Of a DNA stretch of 42,353 bases, positions 34,159 through 40,308 are shown in pieces. The stretch's first letter is position 1. The number at the start of each line of letters is the position of its first letter. Below the pieces are notes generated by a model, which ran no database searches, was not told where the DNA came from, and saw only the letters and a program-made list of their open reading frames with translations. This DNA comes from Candidatus Poribacteria bacterium (GTDB taxonomy: Bacteria; Poribacteria; WGA-4E; WGA-3G), in the NCBI GenBank assembly GCA_022824265.1, contig JAJEAG010000011.1:1-42353 (forward strand), read 5' to 3'. A program made the position numbers and the translations under genes.

Positions 34159-34773
34159 CTATAGCGATTCCAATTCATTCAATGCAGTGATAATCTGATC
34201 CGAAGATGTTCGATGACCGTACCTTGCACCGAGGTCTTTCCAAGCGATTTTTCCATTAACATCAATAATGTAGGTTGTAGGACGCGCTAACCCTGAACCA
34301 TTCTGATCGAAAGCATTGTAATCATCGATAGTTAGTTTATCCTCATCTGAAAGTAGAAGATAAGATATACTTTCGTTATTACGTGTATGAGATGCCCCCG
34401 CTGGAGTATCAGCACTAATAGCAATTAATTCAGCAGCACCTGCTGATTTTATATTCTCATACCCATTTTGCAACTCACCGAGTTGTCCTCTACAAAACGG
34501 TCATCCGCCAGTGGCATAGAAGGCAAGTACAACCACTTTTCCTGCGTAATCGTTTAAGGAATGTAAATTTCCATCTCCATCAGGAAGTGAAAATACGGGT
34601 GCTGTTTCTCCAATTGATAGACCGTCTCCCGCAGGTAAAGGGTCGAAAGTTGGTTCTTCAGGTATTGTTAATATATTTTCCGGCAGCATATCAGTATCAA
34701 GGCAACTAAAACCTATCAATGTCACAGCAATTAGTGTGACAAACGAAAGTCCATTAATAAGTTTATTCATCAT
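34159..34773 (-). CDS. Peroxiredoxin-like (AhpC/TSA) lipoprotein, predicted selenoprotein
   Basis: Read through one in-frame TGA (34501-34503), this is a 204-residue thioredoxin-fold protein: a membrane-anchoring N-terminus with Cys near residue 24 (LIGFSC), GETAPVFSLPDGDGNLHSL, then VVVLAFYATGG-U91-PFCRGQLGELQ and a normal Prx C-terminal half (LIAISADTPAGAS, YIIDVNGKIAWKDLG). Relatives carry W-C-P-F-C-R here, so TGA stands exactly at the peroxidatic Cys, giving U-x-x-C. A six-bp hairpin follows (34471-34485). It should reduce peroxides outside the cytoplasm. The ATG overlaps the end of the sulfatase gene by 11 bases and AAGGAG lies upstream. Read conventionally it would be two broken genes; the Sec reading is an inference. 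Confidence 0.82.
34471..34485 (-). promoter_or_regulatory. Candidate bacterial SECIS hairpin of the Prx gene
   Basis: On the coding strand, CAACTC-GGT-GAGTTG forms a perfect six-bp stem with a G-first triloop; 21 bases separate the TGA from the loop. Both features match known bacterial SECIS rules (loop G, roughly 16-37 bases from the UGA). Confidence 0.65.
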
Positions 34774-37268: not shown

Positions 37269-38018
37269 ATGCTCACGAAAGAAATGGTGCAAGACGCACC
37301 TTTGGACCCGGGAGTCTACTTTTTCTATGGTGCATCGGGTAAAATCCTATATATCGGTAAGGCTAAATGTCTACGTAAACGGGTCCGTTCCTATATCCAT
37401 AATGTAAAGAATAGACGTTCAAAAATCAAACGACTTATCCGTTGGACGACTGCTGTCCGTTATCAGGTGTGCCAATCTGAACAAGAAGCACTTTTCCTTG
37501 AATCGCGTTTAATTAAAAAACATCTACCCTCATATAATTCCGCTTTGAAGTATGGAACGCAAACGTGGTATATCCGCATTGATGTTTCTGATGATTTTCC
37601 GCTACTTGAAAGAGTTCCAGAGATACAATCAGACAATGCAAGATATTTCGGTCCACTTTCAAGTCGCAGATGGACTGATGAAGCGATTGATGTTTTACAA
37701 CGGATATTTATGGTTAGAACGTGTCAAGGAATCATTACACCACATGCAGAATATAGAGCGTGCCTACAATACGATATGAAACGTTGTTATGCTCCGTGTG
37801 CTGCACTTATCACAAGAGAACTTTATAAAGAAATAATAATGAACATCATTAATCTACTTGATGGTGAGTATGAAAAAGTGCAAACAAATTTATTAGCAAA
37901 GCGGAATAGTGCATCTGCGATGTTACAATTTGAAAGGGCTGCTGCAATACATAAACAGATCTTACGTCTTCAAAAAATCTTTCCTTTTCTGGATGCACAT
38001 AGAGAAAAACCTTACTAA
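37269..38018 (+). CDS. GIY-YIG endonuclease resembling the N-terminal half of UvrC (Cho-like)
   Basis: A 249-residue protein with the GIY-YIG nuclease domain at residues ~10-95 (DPGVYFFYGASGKILYIGKAKCLRKRVRSY), the UvrC-type cysteine cluster ACLQYDMKRCYAPCAA (about 170-185), and a UVR motif (AMLQFERAAAIHKQILRLQ, ~217-235). The C-terminal RNase H-like nuclease and helix-hairpin-helix domains of UvrC are missing, as in Cho, so it could make only the 3' incision of nucleotide excision repair. The frame ends naturally and no remnant of the missing half follows, so I call it a short form and not a broken uvrC. Confidence 0.85.
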   Translation: MLTKEMVQDAPLDPGVYFFYGASGKILYIGKAKCLRKRVRSYIHNVKNRRSKIKRLIRWTTAVRYQVCQSEQEALFLESRLIKKHLPSYNSALKYGTQTWYIRIDVSDDFPLLERVPEIQSDNARYFGPLSSRRWTDEAIDVLQRIFMVRTCQGIITPHAEYRACLQYDMKRCYAPCAALITRELYKEIIMNIINLLDGEYEKVQTNLLAKRNSASAMLQFERAAAIHKQILRLQKIFPFLDAHREKPY

Positions 38019-38095: not shown

Positions 38096-38123
38096 TTGAC
38101 AATATAAGTAATAATATGATAAT
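38096..38123 (+). promoter_or_regulatory. Candidate promoter of the tandem Sec-HMA genes
   Basis: TTGACA (38096-38101), a 16-base gap and GATAAT (38118-38123) lie just upstream of the strong AAAGGAGGT ribosome binding site (38141-38149) of the first HMA gene. Confidence 0.55.
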
Positions 38124-38155: not shown

Positions 38156-38539
38156 ATGAGAATCGCGAAATATGCGCTGATTACACTCGTTACCTTTGCA
38201 CTCCTGACAGGTTGTGGTATGGTTGGTCAACAGGCAGAGATGCCGGAAGACACCACAATGGTGGCTGAAGAAAAACCGATGGAAGAAATTTCTGTGCCAA
38301 CACCAAAAAAATCAGCCTATCAGGAAGTGACACTTCAGGTGGAGGGCATGACTTGAGCATCGTGTCCCGCCGCAGTGCAGGATGCACTGAGTAAGGTCAC
38401 AGGTGTTGCAGAGGTCATTAGTGTAGAAAGATCCACCAAGAAGGCTGTCGTTAAAGTTGAAAAGGGCAAAGTTTCTAACGACGCTCTGATTAAAGCTGTT
38501 GAAGCAGATCCTCGTTTTACGGTATCATCCGTTAATTAA
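38156..38539 (+). CDS. HMA-domain lipoprotein, predicted selenoprotein (GMT-U-ASC)
   Basis: Read through the in-frame TGA at 38354-38356, this 127-residue protein has a lipoprotein signal (ALLTGC, Cys near residue 20), an acidic spacer, and a complete heavy-metal-associated domain: VTLQVEGMT-U67-ASCPAAVQDAL, then VTGVAEVISVERSTKKAVVKVEKG and ALIKAVEADPRF. In ordinary HMA proteins the motif is GMTCxxC, binding Cu(I) or Hg(II); here the first Cys is TGA. Homology continues unbroken after the TGA, no new start lies there, and a 7-bp hairpin follows. It is paralogous to the next gene. Expected location is the periplasmic face of a membrane; a metal- or redox-active U-x-x-C site is inferred. Confidence 0.85.
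38373..38389 (+). promoter_or_regulatory. Candidate bacterial SECIS hairpin, first HMA gene
   Basis: CAGTGCA-GGA-TGCACTG forms a perfect 7-bp stem with a G-first triloop; 23 bases separate the TGA from the loop. Spacing and loop G fit bacterial SECIS elements, and the spacing equals that of the paralogue. Confidence 0.7.
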
Positions 38540-38545
38540 CGACAT

Positions 38546-38575
38546 TTAAGGGCGGGGTTACTCGCCCTTTATTTC
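38546..38575 (+). terminator. Terminator-like hairpin between the two HMA genes
   Basis: AAGGGCG (38548-38554) and CGCCCTT (38563-38569) enclose an 8-base loop and are followed by a T-rich stretch. It may end or attenuate the first transcript before the second HMA gene. Confidence 0.65.
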
Positions 38576-38630
38576 TATAATCAATAATGTTATTCATAAT
38601 TCGTAAGAACAAATTTATAAGGATAAAATA

Positions 38631-38972
38631 ATGTTGAAAAGAGCACTTATCTGCATAGTAATGATGTTTGTTATCTTTGGATGTGCTAACCAGAAGGACT
38701 CTGCAGAGGACACAACAGAAGCAAATGTTGCCACTGAGGAAATTAGTTTACAAGTAACCGGTATGACATGAGGTGCTTGCGTTGCCAGTGTGCAGTCTGC
38801 ACTTAAAAAAGTTGAAGGTGTTACTGAGGTTGTCAGTGTTTCTCAAGCGGATGGTAAAGCAGTTGTGAAGGTCAAAAAAGATCAAGTTAAAGCTACTACT
38901 TTGGTAGAAGCTGTCGCAGCAGCTGAAGAAATTGATGAAAAACCACGTTTTACAGCAAAAGTAATTGAATAA
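38631..38972 (+). CDS. Second HMA-domain lipoprotein, predicted selenoprotein (GMT-U-GAC)
   Basis: Read through the TGA at 38769-38771, this 113-residue protein has a lipoprotein signal (FVIFGC, Cys18), a short acidic spacer and an HMA domain: ISLQVTGMT-U47-GACVASVQSALKKVEGVTEV, then VSVSQADGKAVVKVKKDQ and TLVEAVAAAEEIDEKPRF. The TGA is again at the first Cys of the GMTCxxC metal motif. The alignment with the upstream paralogue is nearly gap-free across the TGA. AAGGAT precedes the ATG. Two independent genes with TGA at the same catalytic position argue strongly against sequencing error or decay. A role in extracytoplasmic copper or mercury binding, or in redox chemistry, is inferred. Confidence 0.85.
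38790..38802 (+). promoter_or_regulatory. Candidate bacterial SECIS hairpin, second HMA gene
   Basis: GTGCA-GTC-TGCAC forms a 5-bp stem with a G-first triloop, 23 bases after the TGA, the same distance as in the paralogue. The stem is shorter, so it is less certain. Confidence 0.58.
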
Positions 38973-39102: not shown

Positions 39103-40308
39103 ATGAAATTCTTATTAATGGGAGGTGTAGTCATTATGATACTGATGCATTCTATACCTATATGTGCTAATGAAAAATCATCAGTAGTATTTGAGGAGAT
39201 TGACCCTTATTTGGCTACACCCGCACCTGGACATCTGTATGAAATACCTGTTGTCATAATGAGGTATTTACCTACAGCAGATGGTAAGAATGTGGATGTT
39301 AGTAAAGCACCCGATTTTTACGACTTGGGTGAAATGTCCTTGAAAGAACTCAAGTCAAAGATAGATCTATATGACAAACGAGTGAAGTTTATGCTTGAAG
39401 AGGGAACTCGTTTTAGAGGTTATAAGAATTCTTCTGCTGTACCTTCCATTGGTTATAGGGTTGTGGAATATATCACTGTATATGAACAGACTCCACAAGG
39501 ACCAGTTTCTACTCACCTAAAGGATGGAACACCGTTGTACTCTCCTGACTACCATAAGATTTTTGAACGATTTAATATGGAGCATTATGTCAACGATTTA
39601 GGTGTCAAAGAGATATGGATGTGGATGGGTGGTGTGAATTCTGATTTTCCGTGTTATGATCCTGTTTTGCATAAACCGGAAGATTTCAGAAACTGGTGGG
39701 AATCAAATATGTCAAGTCCGTTGACAGGAGATATTTCGAATAGCAACCGTGATAATACAGACCTACCTATTTACGAATCTACATATACTGTGTATGGACA
39801 GAATTTCAGACGAAGCCATGCAGAAGCGGTGCATAATCATGGTCATCAGTTGGAAGCGATATTAAGTCATGCGAACCAATTACAATTCGGAAATACAGAC
39901 CTATTTTGGAAGAAGTTCGTTGGTCAAGATGAAGCAGGTAACTTTATTACAGGACGTGCTGGATGGACACACATGCCACCAAATACAACGAAACACTATG
40001 ACTACACGGGAACGATGACCCTCGTGGAAAGTGATATTGAGGATTGGACTCCTGATAATAGTGGAACAAAGACTTTGGTGAACGTTGATACTTATGGGAA
40101 TCTGAAGTATGCATGGCAAGAATCTAACCCTGAAGATATTCAGCAACGAATTGAGTCTCAGTGGTATATCTATTGGATGCAAAATATGCCTGGATATAAT
40201 AACGGTATACCGTTTGAGGATAGAGAAATGACGAATTGGTGGATATTCACTGCTGATTGGGATATGGCTGTTTCATCCGGTATGGGACTTGTTTCTAACC
40301 CTAAGTAA
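39103..40308 (+). CDS. Secreted protein of unknown function
   Basis: I do not recognise this 401-residue protein. A signal peptide (MKFLLMGGVVIMILM, cleavage near CAN-EKS) indicates export. The mature part is rich in aromatic and acidic residues and has several striking segments: a possible metal site EAVHNHGHQLEAIL (~245-258), the Trp-rich WMWMGGVNSDFPCYD (~177-191), a THMPPNTTKHYDY stretch and a C-terminal WWIFTADWDMAVSS. No repeat or membrane segment is seen in the mature part. The His/Glu cluster suggests an enzyme, but no family can be named. It lies downstream of the Sec-HMA genes behind a terminator; AAGG precedes the ATG. Confidence 0.75.
   Translation: MKFLLMGGVVIMILMHSIPICANEKSSVVFEEIDPYLATPAPGHLYEIPVVIMRYLPTADGKNVDVSKAPDFYDLGEMSLKELKSKIDLYDKRVKFMLEEGTRFRGYKNSSAVPSIGYRVVEYITVYEQTPQGPVSTHLKDGTPLYSPDYHKIFERFNMEHYVNDLGVKEIWMWMGGVNSDFPCYDPVLHKPEDFRNWWESNMSSPLTGDISNSNRDNTDLPIYESTYTVYGQNFRRSHAEAVHNHGHQLEAILSHANQLQFGNTDLFWKKFVGQDEAGNFITGRAGWTHMPPNTTKHYDYTGTMTLVESDIEDWTPDNSGTKTLVNVDTYGNLKYAWQESNPEDIQQRIESQWYIYWMQNMPGYNNGIPFEDREMTNWWIFTADWDMAVSSGMGLVSNPK

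Follow-up and report, generated by a model that had tools for sequence, protein, structure and literature searches.

In each of two tandem genes on the + strand of a Candidatus Poribacteria contig, one in-frame TGA codon takes the place of the first Cys in the HMA motif. That both codons are decoded as selenocysteine (Sec) is established about as firmly as sequence evidence allows. This near-certainty comes from the combination of the Sec machinery found in the genome, the conserved TGA column, and the conservation of a downstream hairpin that is lost in Cys paralogues. Probably, the codons are read by SelB and tRNA-Sec, and the products form an exported, lipid-anchored pair of HMA proteins with a UxxC loop that captures or buffers a soft metal rather than carrying out catalysis. 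Below, the whole stretch of DNA analysed (42,353 nucleotides) is referred to as the window.

The tandem gene pair and its products

The first gene (38156..38539, +) codes for a 127-aa protein with a single Sec residue, U67, specified by the TGA at 38354..38356 (+), a column conserved in the family. The protein is composed of a signal peptide with the lipobox LTGC, a linker, and an HMA domain with the motif GMTUASC. The second gene (38631..38972, +) codes for a 113-aa protein, again with one Sec (U47, TGA at 38769..38771, +), a signal peptide, an FGC lipobox-like site, and an HMA domain with the motif GMTUGAC. In alignment the two proteins are 46% identical. An earlier, sequence-only reading of this DNA had described such a paralogous pair with TGA in place of the first Cys, and both genes are confirmed. 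It had also held that the HMA domain is complete only if TGA is read. Consistent with this, both read-through proteins match the Pfam HMA family PF00403 above its cut-off (E 2e-9 and 4e-10; 38.1 and 40.3 bits versus a gathering score of 24.8), and since the matches begin at residue 59 in protein 1 and residue 40 in protein 2, the TGA falls within the domain. The entire GMTxxxC metal loop is retained in the alignment. The AlphaFold2 model of protein 1 has the order beta-alpha-beta-beta-alpha-beta, with a pLDDT of about 85 over the HMA domain, and the nearest solved structure in a fold search is MerP (1osd; 46% identity, E 1.5e-6).

Read from the sequence by eye, a lipobox is present in both proteins, as LLTGC-G and VIFGC-A, respectively. 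The lipobox Cys is invariant across 30 aligned proteins, the homologues having been picked for a lipobox-like site. Judging from the lipobox, both proteins are likely to be exported and lipid-anchored outside the cytoplasm. Upstream of gene 1 lies a promoter-like site, TTGACA-16-GATAAT (38096..38123, +), with 11 of 12 consensus matches; it is a consensus match only, and the region holds 6 such sites versus 4.4 expected. A hairpin resembling an intrinsic terminator (38548..38569, +; 9 pairs, followed by TATTTCT) separates the two genes. Given these two features, genes 1 and 2 are perhaps not strictly co-transcribed.

Conservation of the TGA column

For comparison, 85 genomes of the phylum Poribacteria were searched for HMA genes. 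Within the family to which this genome belongs, at least 58 of 59 genomes have TGA at this column of an HMA gene, and so do the 14 remaining genomes of the order without exception. Paralogues carry Cys at this column, namely P-type ATPases, the one or two domains that close poly-HMA chains, and some cytochrome fusions. The homologues thus show either TGA or Cys, as expected from the sequence-only reading, plus a single TAA in one copy of a third lipoprotein subfamily (L240, genome G076), which presumably reflects decay. The worry that resequencing might turn the TGA into TGC or TGT can be laid aside: TGA recurs in dozens of independent assemblies, including the single-contig chromosomes OY282386.1 and OX639973.1, which excludes a sequencing error.

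Protein similarity had been reported to continue past the TGA, and the codons 3' of it show a dN/dS of 0.13-0.45 in seven of eight comparisons, while the eighth comparison contains three changes, all synonymous. These values indicate that purifying selection acts downstream of the TGA. In a domain tree, which is built on 74 columns and contains many open forks, the Cys domains that end the poly-HMA chains of four genomes cluster together, and the two copies of the pair form separate lines within the genus.

Hairpins downstream of the TGA codons

Each TGA is followed by a SECIS hairpin, AGTGCA-GGA-TGCACT in gene 1 (38374..38388, +) and GTGCA-GTC-TGCAC in gene 2 (38790..38802, +; with comparative support). 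In both, the first base of the loop is a G located 23 nt after the TGA, in agreement with the equal spacing noted earlier. The RNA folding that had been proposed as a check gave a divided answer. Folded as single sequences, the sites are unremarkable: site 1 has a z of -1.6, and site 2 a z of +0.3, its minimum-energy fold being a different one that does not support the hairpin. Taken singly, both window hairpins score weakly in free energy; the evidence for the hairpin comes from comparison.

A hairpin of the form AGTGCR-GNN-YGCACT, or a close variant, is nearly universal at the Sec sites, 20-34 nt after the T of TGA, with a spacing of 23 nt from the TGA to the loop G. All five inner pairs together with a G-first loop are kept at 172 of 184 distinct TGA sites, versus 9.8 +/- 3.1 expected (never more than 21 over 2000 draws) under a null in which synonymous codons are sampled anew while each protein stays fixed; the 184 sites are kin by descent, so that the counts are not independent. 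The first base of the loop is G at every one of the 184 sites. The Val residue encoded by the 5' arm uses GTG at 183 of them; elsewhere in these domains, GTG accounts for 21% of Val codons. Among the 25 sites where the Gln codon CAG of the 5' arm is replaced by the Arg codon CGG, 9 have C as the facing base, compared with 0 of 158 sites with CAG, which marks this C as a compensatory change. Only 2 of 18 Cys paralogue sites have the hairpin. Outside the phylum, the same hairpin was found only at two Acidobacteria loci and one Akkermansiaceae locus.

Selenocysteine decoding

The sequence-only reading had made its interpretation depend on the presence of Sec machinery. In this genome, of 4.45 Mb and 97% complete, the machinery was found: selA (609 bits), selB (354 bits), tRNA-Sec and selD all score above their family cut-offs. 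The tRNA-Sec has the anticodon TCA (UCA) and is located about 60 bp downstream of selB; selD is itself a selenoprotein gene, with an in-frame TGA in the catalytic loop (KCAGUASK). Across the phylum, tRNA-Sec was detected in 72 of the 85 genomes, including every single-contig genome with TGA genes, and the genomes with TGA genes that gave no tRNA-Sec match are mostly fragmented assemblies. An Rfam scan of the window returned no match.

TGA is the terminal stop of 5 of the 28 long ORFs in the window, and it is therefore not globally reassigned. The same count could be taken to mean that the two TGA codons are genuine stops, or that the genes are decaying, with short truncated lipoproteins as their products, and the TAA in a paralogue of another genome would fit this as well. 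It is, however, highly improbable in view of the retention of TGA in nearly all relatives, the selection beyond it, the conservation of the hairpin against synonymous drift, and the full Sec machinery. Even harder to credit is a recoding of TGA as Trp or Cys by a different code or a suppressor, for which we found no supporting point. The alignment of the TGA column with Cys, the use of TGA to end normal genes here, and the presence of tRNA-Sec(UCA), selA, selB and selD all speak against it.

Other Sec-containing HMA proteins

Three of the four HMA domains in this genome, which was searched family by family, carry Sec. The fourth, GMHCENC, opens a long P-type-ATPase-like frame and has no Sec. 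The third Sec-HMA domain (GMTUGVC; L024/L026) is at the C-terminus of a 532-aa fusion protein (contig C89 of this genome, G000; locus L026:4913-6511) that also has a signal-like N-terminus, a c-type heme motif of the CxxCH type (CQGCH) and a WD40 propeller. The L026 fusion adjoins a sulfatase gene and DUF1549/DUF1501-like genes. In cytochrome-WD40-HMA relatives from another family of the order (L082, L086 and L102), Cys replaces Sec.

In related genomes, HMA domains are also found as chains: L059 (G076) has 5 HMA domains with 4 Sec, L062 (single chromosome OY282383.1) has 5 with 3 Sec, and L060, L061 and L063 have 4 with 3 Sec each. A single gene of this kind can therefore contain as many as four Sec together with four internal SECIS hairpins, and the last domain or domains of such chains have Cys and no hairpin. 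The poly-HMA proteins stand alone and begin with a signal-like N-terminus; their gene adjoins, in G047 and G071, the same UvrC-like gene that flanks the pair elsewhere. A third lipoprotein subfamily, with the motif GMDUGGC (L226-L241, mainly G050), is represented by seven copies in G050.

Beyond this phylum, UxxC is found in HMA lipoproteins or exported proteins of Planctomycetota, Armatimonadota, Acidobacteriota, SAR324 and Verrucomicrobiota. P-type ATPases of Aquicultor, Dehalococcoidales and Clostridia (L112, L128, L136, L148, L155, L166, L169 and L188) likewise have UxxC, Sec being the first ligand of an N-terminal HMA domain. One ATPase locus from Tissierellia (L128) has two HMA domains with Sec in each.

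Genomic neighborhood of the pair

Downstream of the pair is a gene for a 401-aa secreted protein (39103..40308, +) of no recognised family, with an HNHGH motif. It had no match in Pfam, NCBIfam or PDB, and AlphaFold2 gave no usable model (mean pLDDT 36). The protein is strongly conserved among relatives, and in two genomes of the same genus (G035 and G039; loci L071 and L070) its homologue is fused to the second Sec-HMA lipoprotein. On the evidence of this fusion, the 401-aa protein is a likely functional partner of lipoprotein 2. A short UvrC-like GIY-YIG protein of 249 aa is encoded at 37269-38018 of the window, and many genomes of the family conserve its gene next to the pair.

The window encodes a probable third selenoprotein, a lipoprotein with a peroxiredoxin-like AhpC/TSA domain and the motif GGUPFC (34159-34773, - strand; TGA at 34503-34501). 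It is full-length only if the TGA is read (Pfam E 1.8e-29), and this TGA is followed by a stable hairpin (z of -2.4). The gene lies 3.3 kb from the pair and remains near it in related genomes (cluster 8). No metal-resistance gene or metal operon adjoins the pair in this or related genomes, the neighbors being housekeeping genes.

Possible function

At neutral pH, Sec is deprotonated, and compared with Cys it is the softer and stronger ligand for Hg(II), Cu(I) and Cd(II). In the scheme that we propose, SelB and tRNA-Sec would read the UGA, helped by the compact hairpin that begins about 17 nt downstream, and would thereby convert the first HMA ligand to Sec (GMTUxxC). Each protein would then be exported and anchored by lipid outside the cytoplasm via its lipobox. 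There, the UxxC loop of the ferredoxin-fold domain, similar to that of MerP or CopZ, may hold Hg(II), Cu(I) or Cd(II) in a tight complex; with its lower pKa, the softer selenolate would bind where an oxidising periplasm and competing ligands disfavor CxxC. We infer export, lipidation, metal binding and a role in capture or buffering rather than catalysis; for metal binding, the basis is the fold together with the motif. Four features jointly favor the capture or buffering of a soft metal outside the cytoplasm: export of the proteins, a metal loop that is intact, the multiplication of the domain, and the presence of Cys in the cytoplasmic pump. Because the multiplication of Sec-HMA domains raises binding capacity, a stoichiometric ligand fits better than a catalyst. 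Together, these features suggest that Sec is used here as a metal ligand and not for catalysis alone. Speaking against this reading are the lack of metal-resistance genes beside the pair and the searches for MerT (with silent controls) and MerA described below, which gave nothing above the cut-offs.

It is also possible, though we think it rather unlikely, that Sec is real but the UxxC is a thiol/selenol redox site, acting in selenenylsulfide exchange or in the reduction of peroxide or metal, with metal binding being incidental. This alternative has to be taken seriously, since many selenoproteins use UxxC as a redox motif, in bacteria the usual one (PMC13188914), and since one Sec-HMA domain is fused to heme c and a WD40 protein, which could point to electron transfer. 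The peroxiredoxin-like selenoprotein gene kept in the neighborhood of the pair and the known oxidised form of MerP (1osd) are in line with it, too. On the other hand, the fold is that of HMA and not of thioredoxin, the whole GMTxxxC metal loop is preserved, and three to four Sec per chain are more natural as a binding stoichiometry. A narrower possibility is that the proteins are mercury-specific, MerP-like carriers that feed a transporter as part of a mer-type pathway. MerP is indeed the closest solved structure, and the NCBIfam match to it is strong (50.7 bits), albeit under the cut-off of 92.55. Nevertheless, we consider such a pathway improbable. A search for MerT found no match in this genome, although the control genomes were equally silent. 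The closest flavoprotein in the MerA search scored 396 bits versus a cut-off of 454 and has neither the C-terminal CysCys nor an HMA domain, and the pair has no mer neighbors. The lipid anchor with its long linker and the multiplied HMA domains are likewise at odds with a MerP-type carrier.

Relation to known selenoproteins

Sec in HMA-type metal proteins is already known, and the caution that related proteins may have been listed before proved well placed. One such case is the family NF041115 (UxxU_metal_bind, the 'putative mercuric reductase' of selenoproteome surveys), which shares with the window proteins a small HMA-type domain with Sec in the GMTxxxC loop. However, it has two Sec per loop (UxxU), whereas UxxC is the motif of the window proteins, whose scores of 50.5 and 48.4 bits fall short of its 95-bit cut-off. 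MerP (TIGR02052) shares the fold, the GMTC/UxxC loop and export; in contrast to it, the window proteins (50.7 and 38.5 of 92.55 bits) have a lipobox and a linker and are not part of a mer operon. Two Sec-containing 'Mercuric transport protein MerP' sequences were reported in the GOS survey (PMC2398784); the entry gives no motif, and the likeness is by name. The cation-transporting ATPase E1-E2 selenoprotein [GenBank:ABB15669.1] has UxxC and belongs to the same metal-pump class, but its HMA is a cytoplasmic domain of a membrane pump, whereas in the window proteins the domain is exported and stands on its own. NF045683 (MerT_CopZ_Se, a MerT/CopZ fusion-like heavy metal transport selenoprotein) combines Sec with a CopZ/HMA-like domain; it is a transporter fusion, to which the window proteins score 44.4 and 29.3 bits versus a 375-bit cut-off. 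For the poly-HMA relatives, the best multi-domain sequence match is the N-terminal repeats of ATP7A/ATP7B, likewise a series of HMA domains. These repeats all have Cys and are part of an ATPase, unlike the stand-alone poly-HMA proteins with their 3-4 Sec.

In the literature on HMA selenoproteins and on Poribacteria with selenocysteine, we found no description of the proteins reported here. A 2026 inventory of 119 prokaryotic selenoprotein families, only a small subset of which have 2-3 Sec, includes neither UxxC HMA lipoproteins nor the fusions nor a protein with four Sec (PMC13188914). A bacterial protein with four Sec, encoded by a gene with as many embedded SECIS hairpins, exceeds the 2-3 Sec of that inventory. 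An enrichment of SelA/SelB in sponge symbionts was noted earlier (PMC5649159). Poribacteria are sponge-associated, and the present data tie selenium use to sponge symbionts.

Sec is costly, and its presence is nearly always explained by catalysis. We tentatively put forward, as an idea with somewhat less than an even chance of being right, that Poribacteria possess an extracytoplasmic, selenium-based metal sponge in which Sec serves as a stoichiometric ligand, made up of the tandem lipoproteins, the chains with up to four Sec, and the heme c/WD40 fusion. Should exported domains with a Sec ligand form such a conserved set, small soluble domains would allow a direct test of whether Sec serves metal affinity, and the Sec and Cys domains paired inside one poly-HMA chain would provide natural controls.
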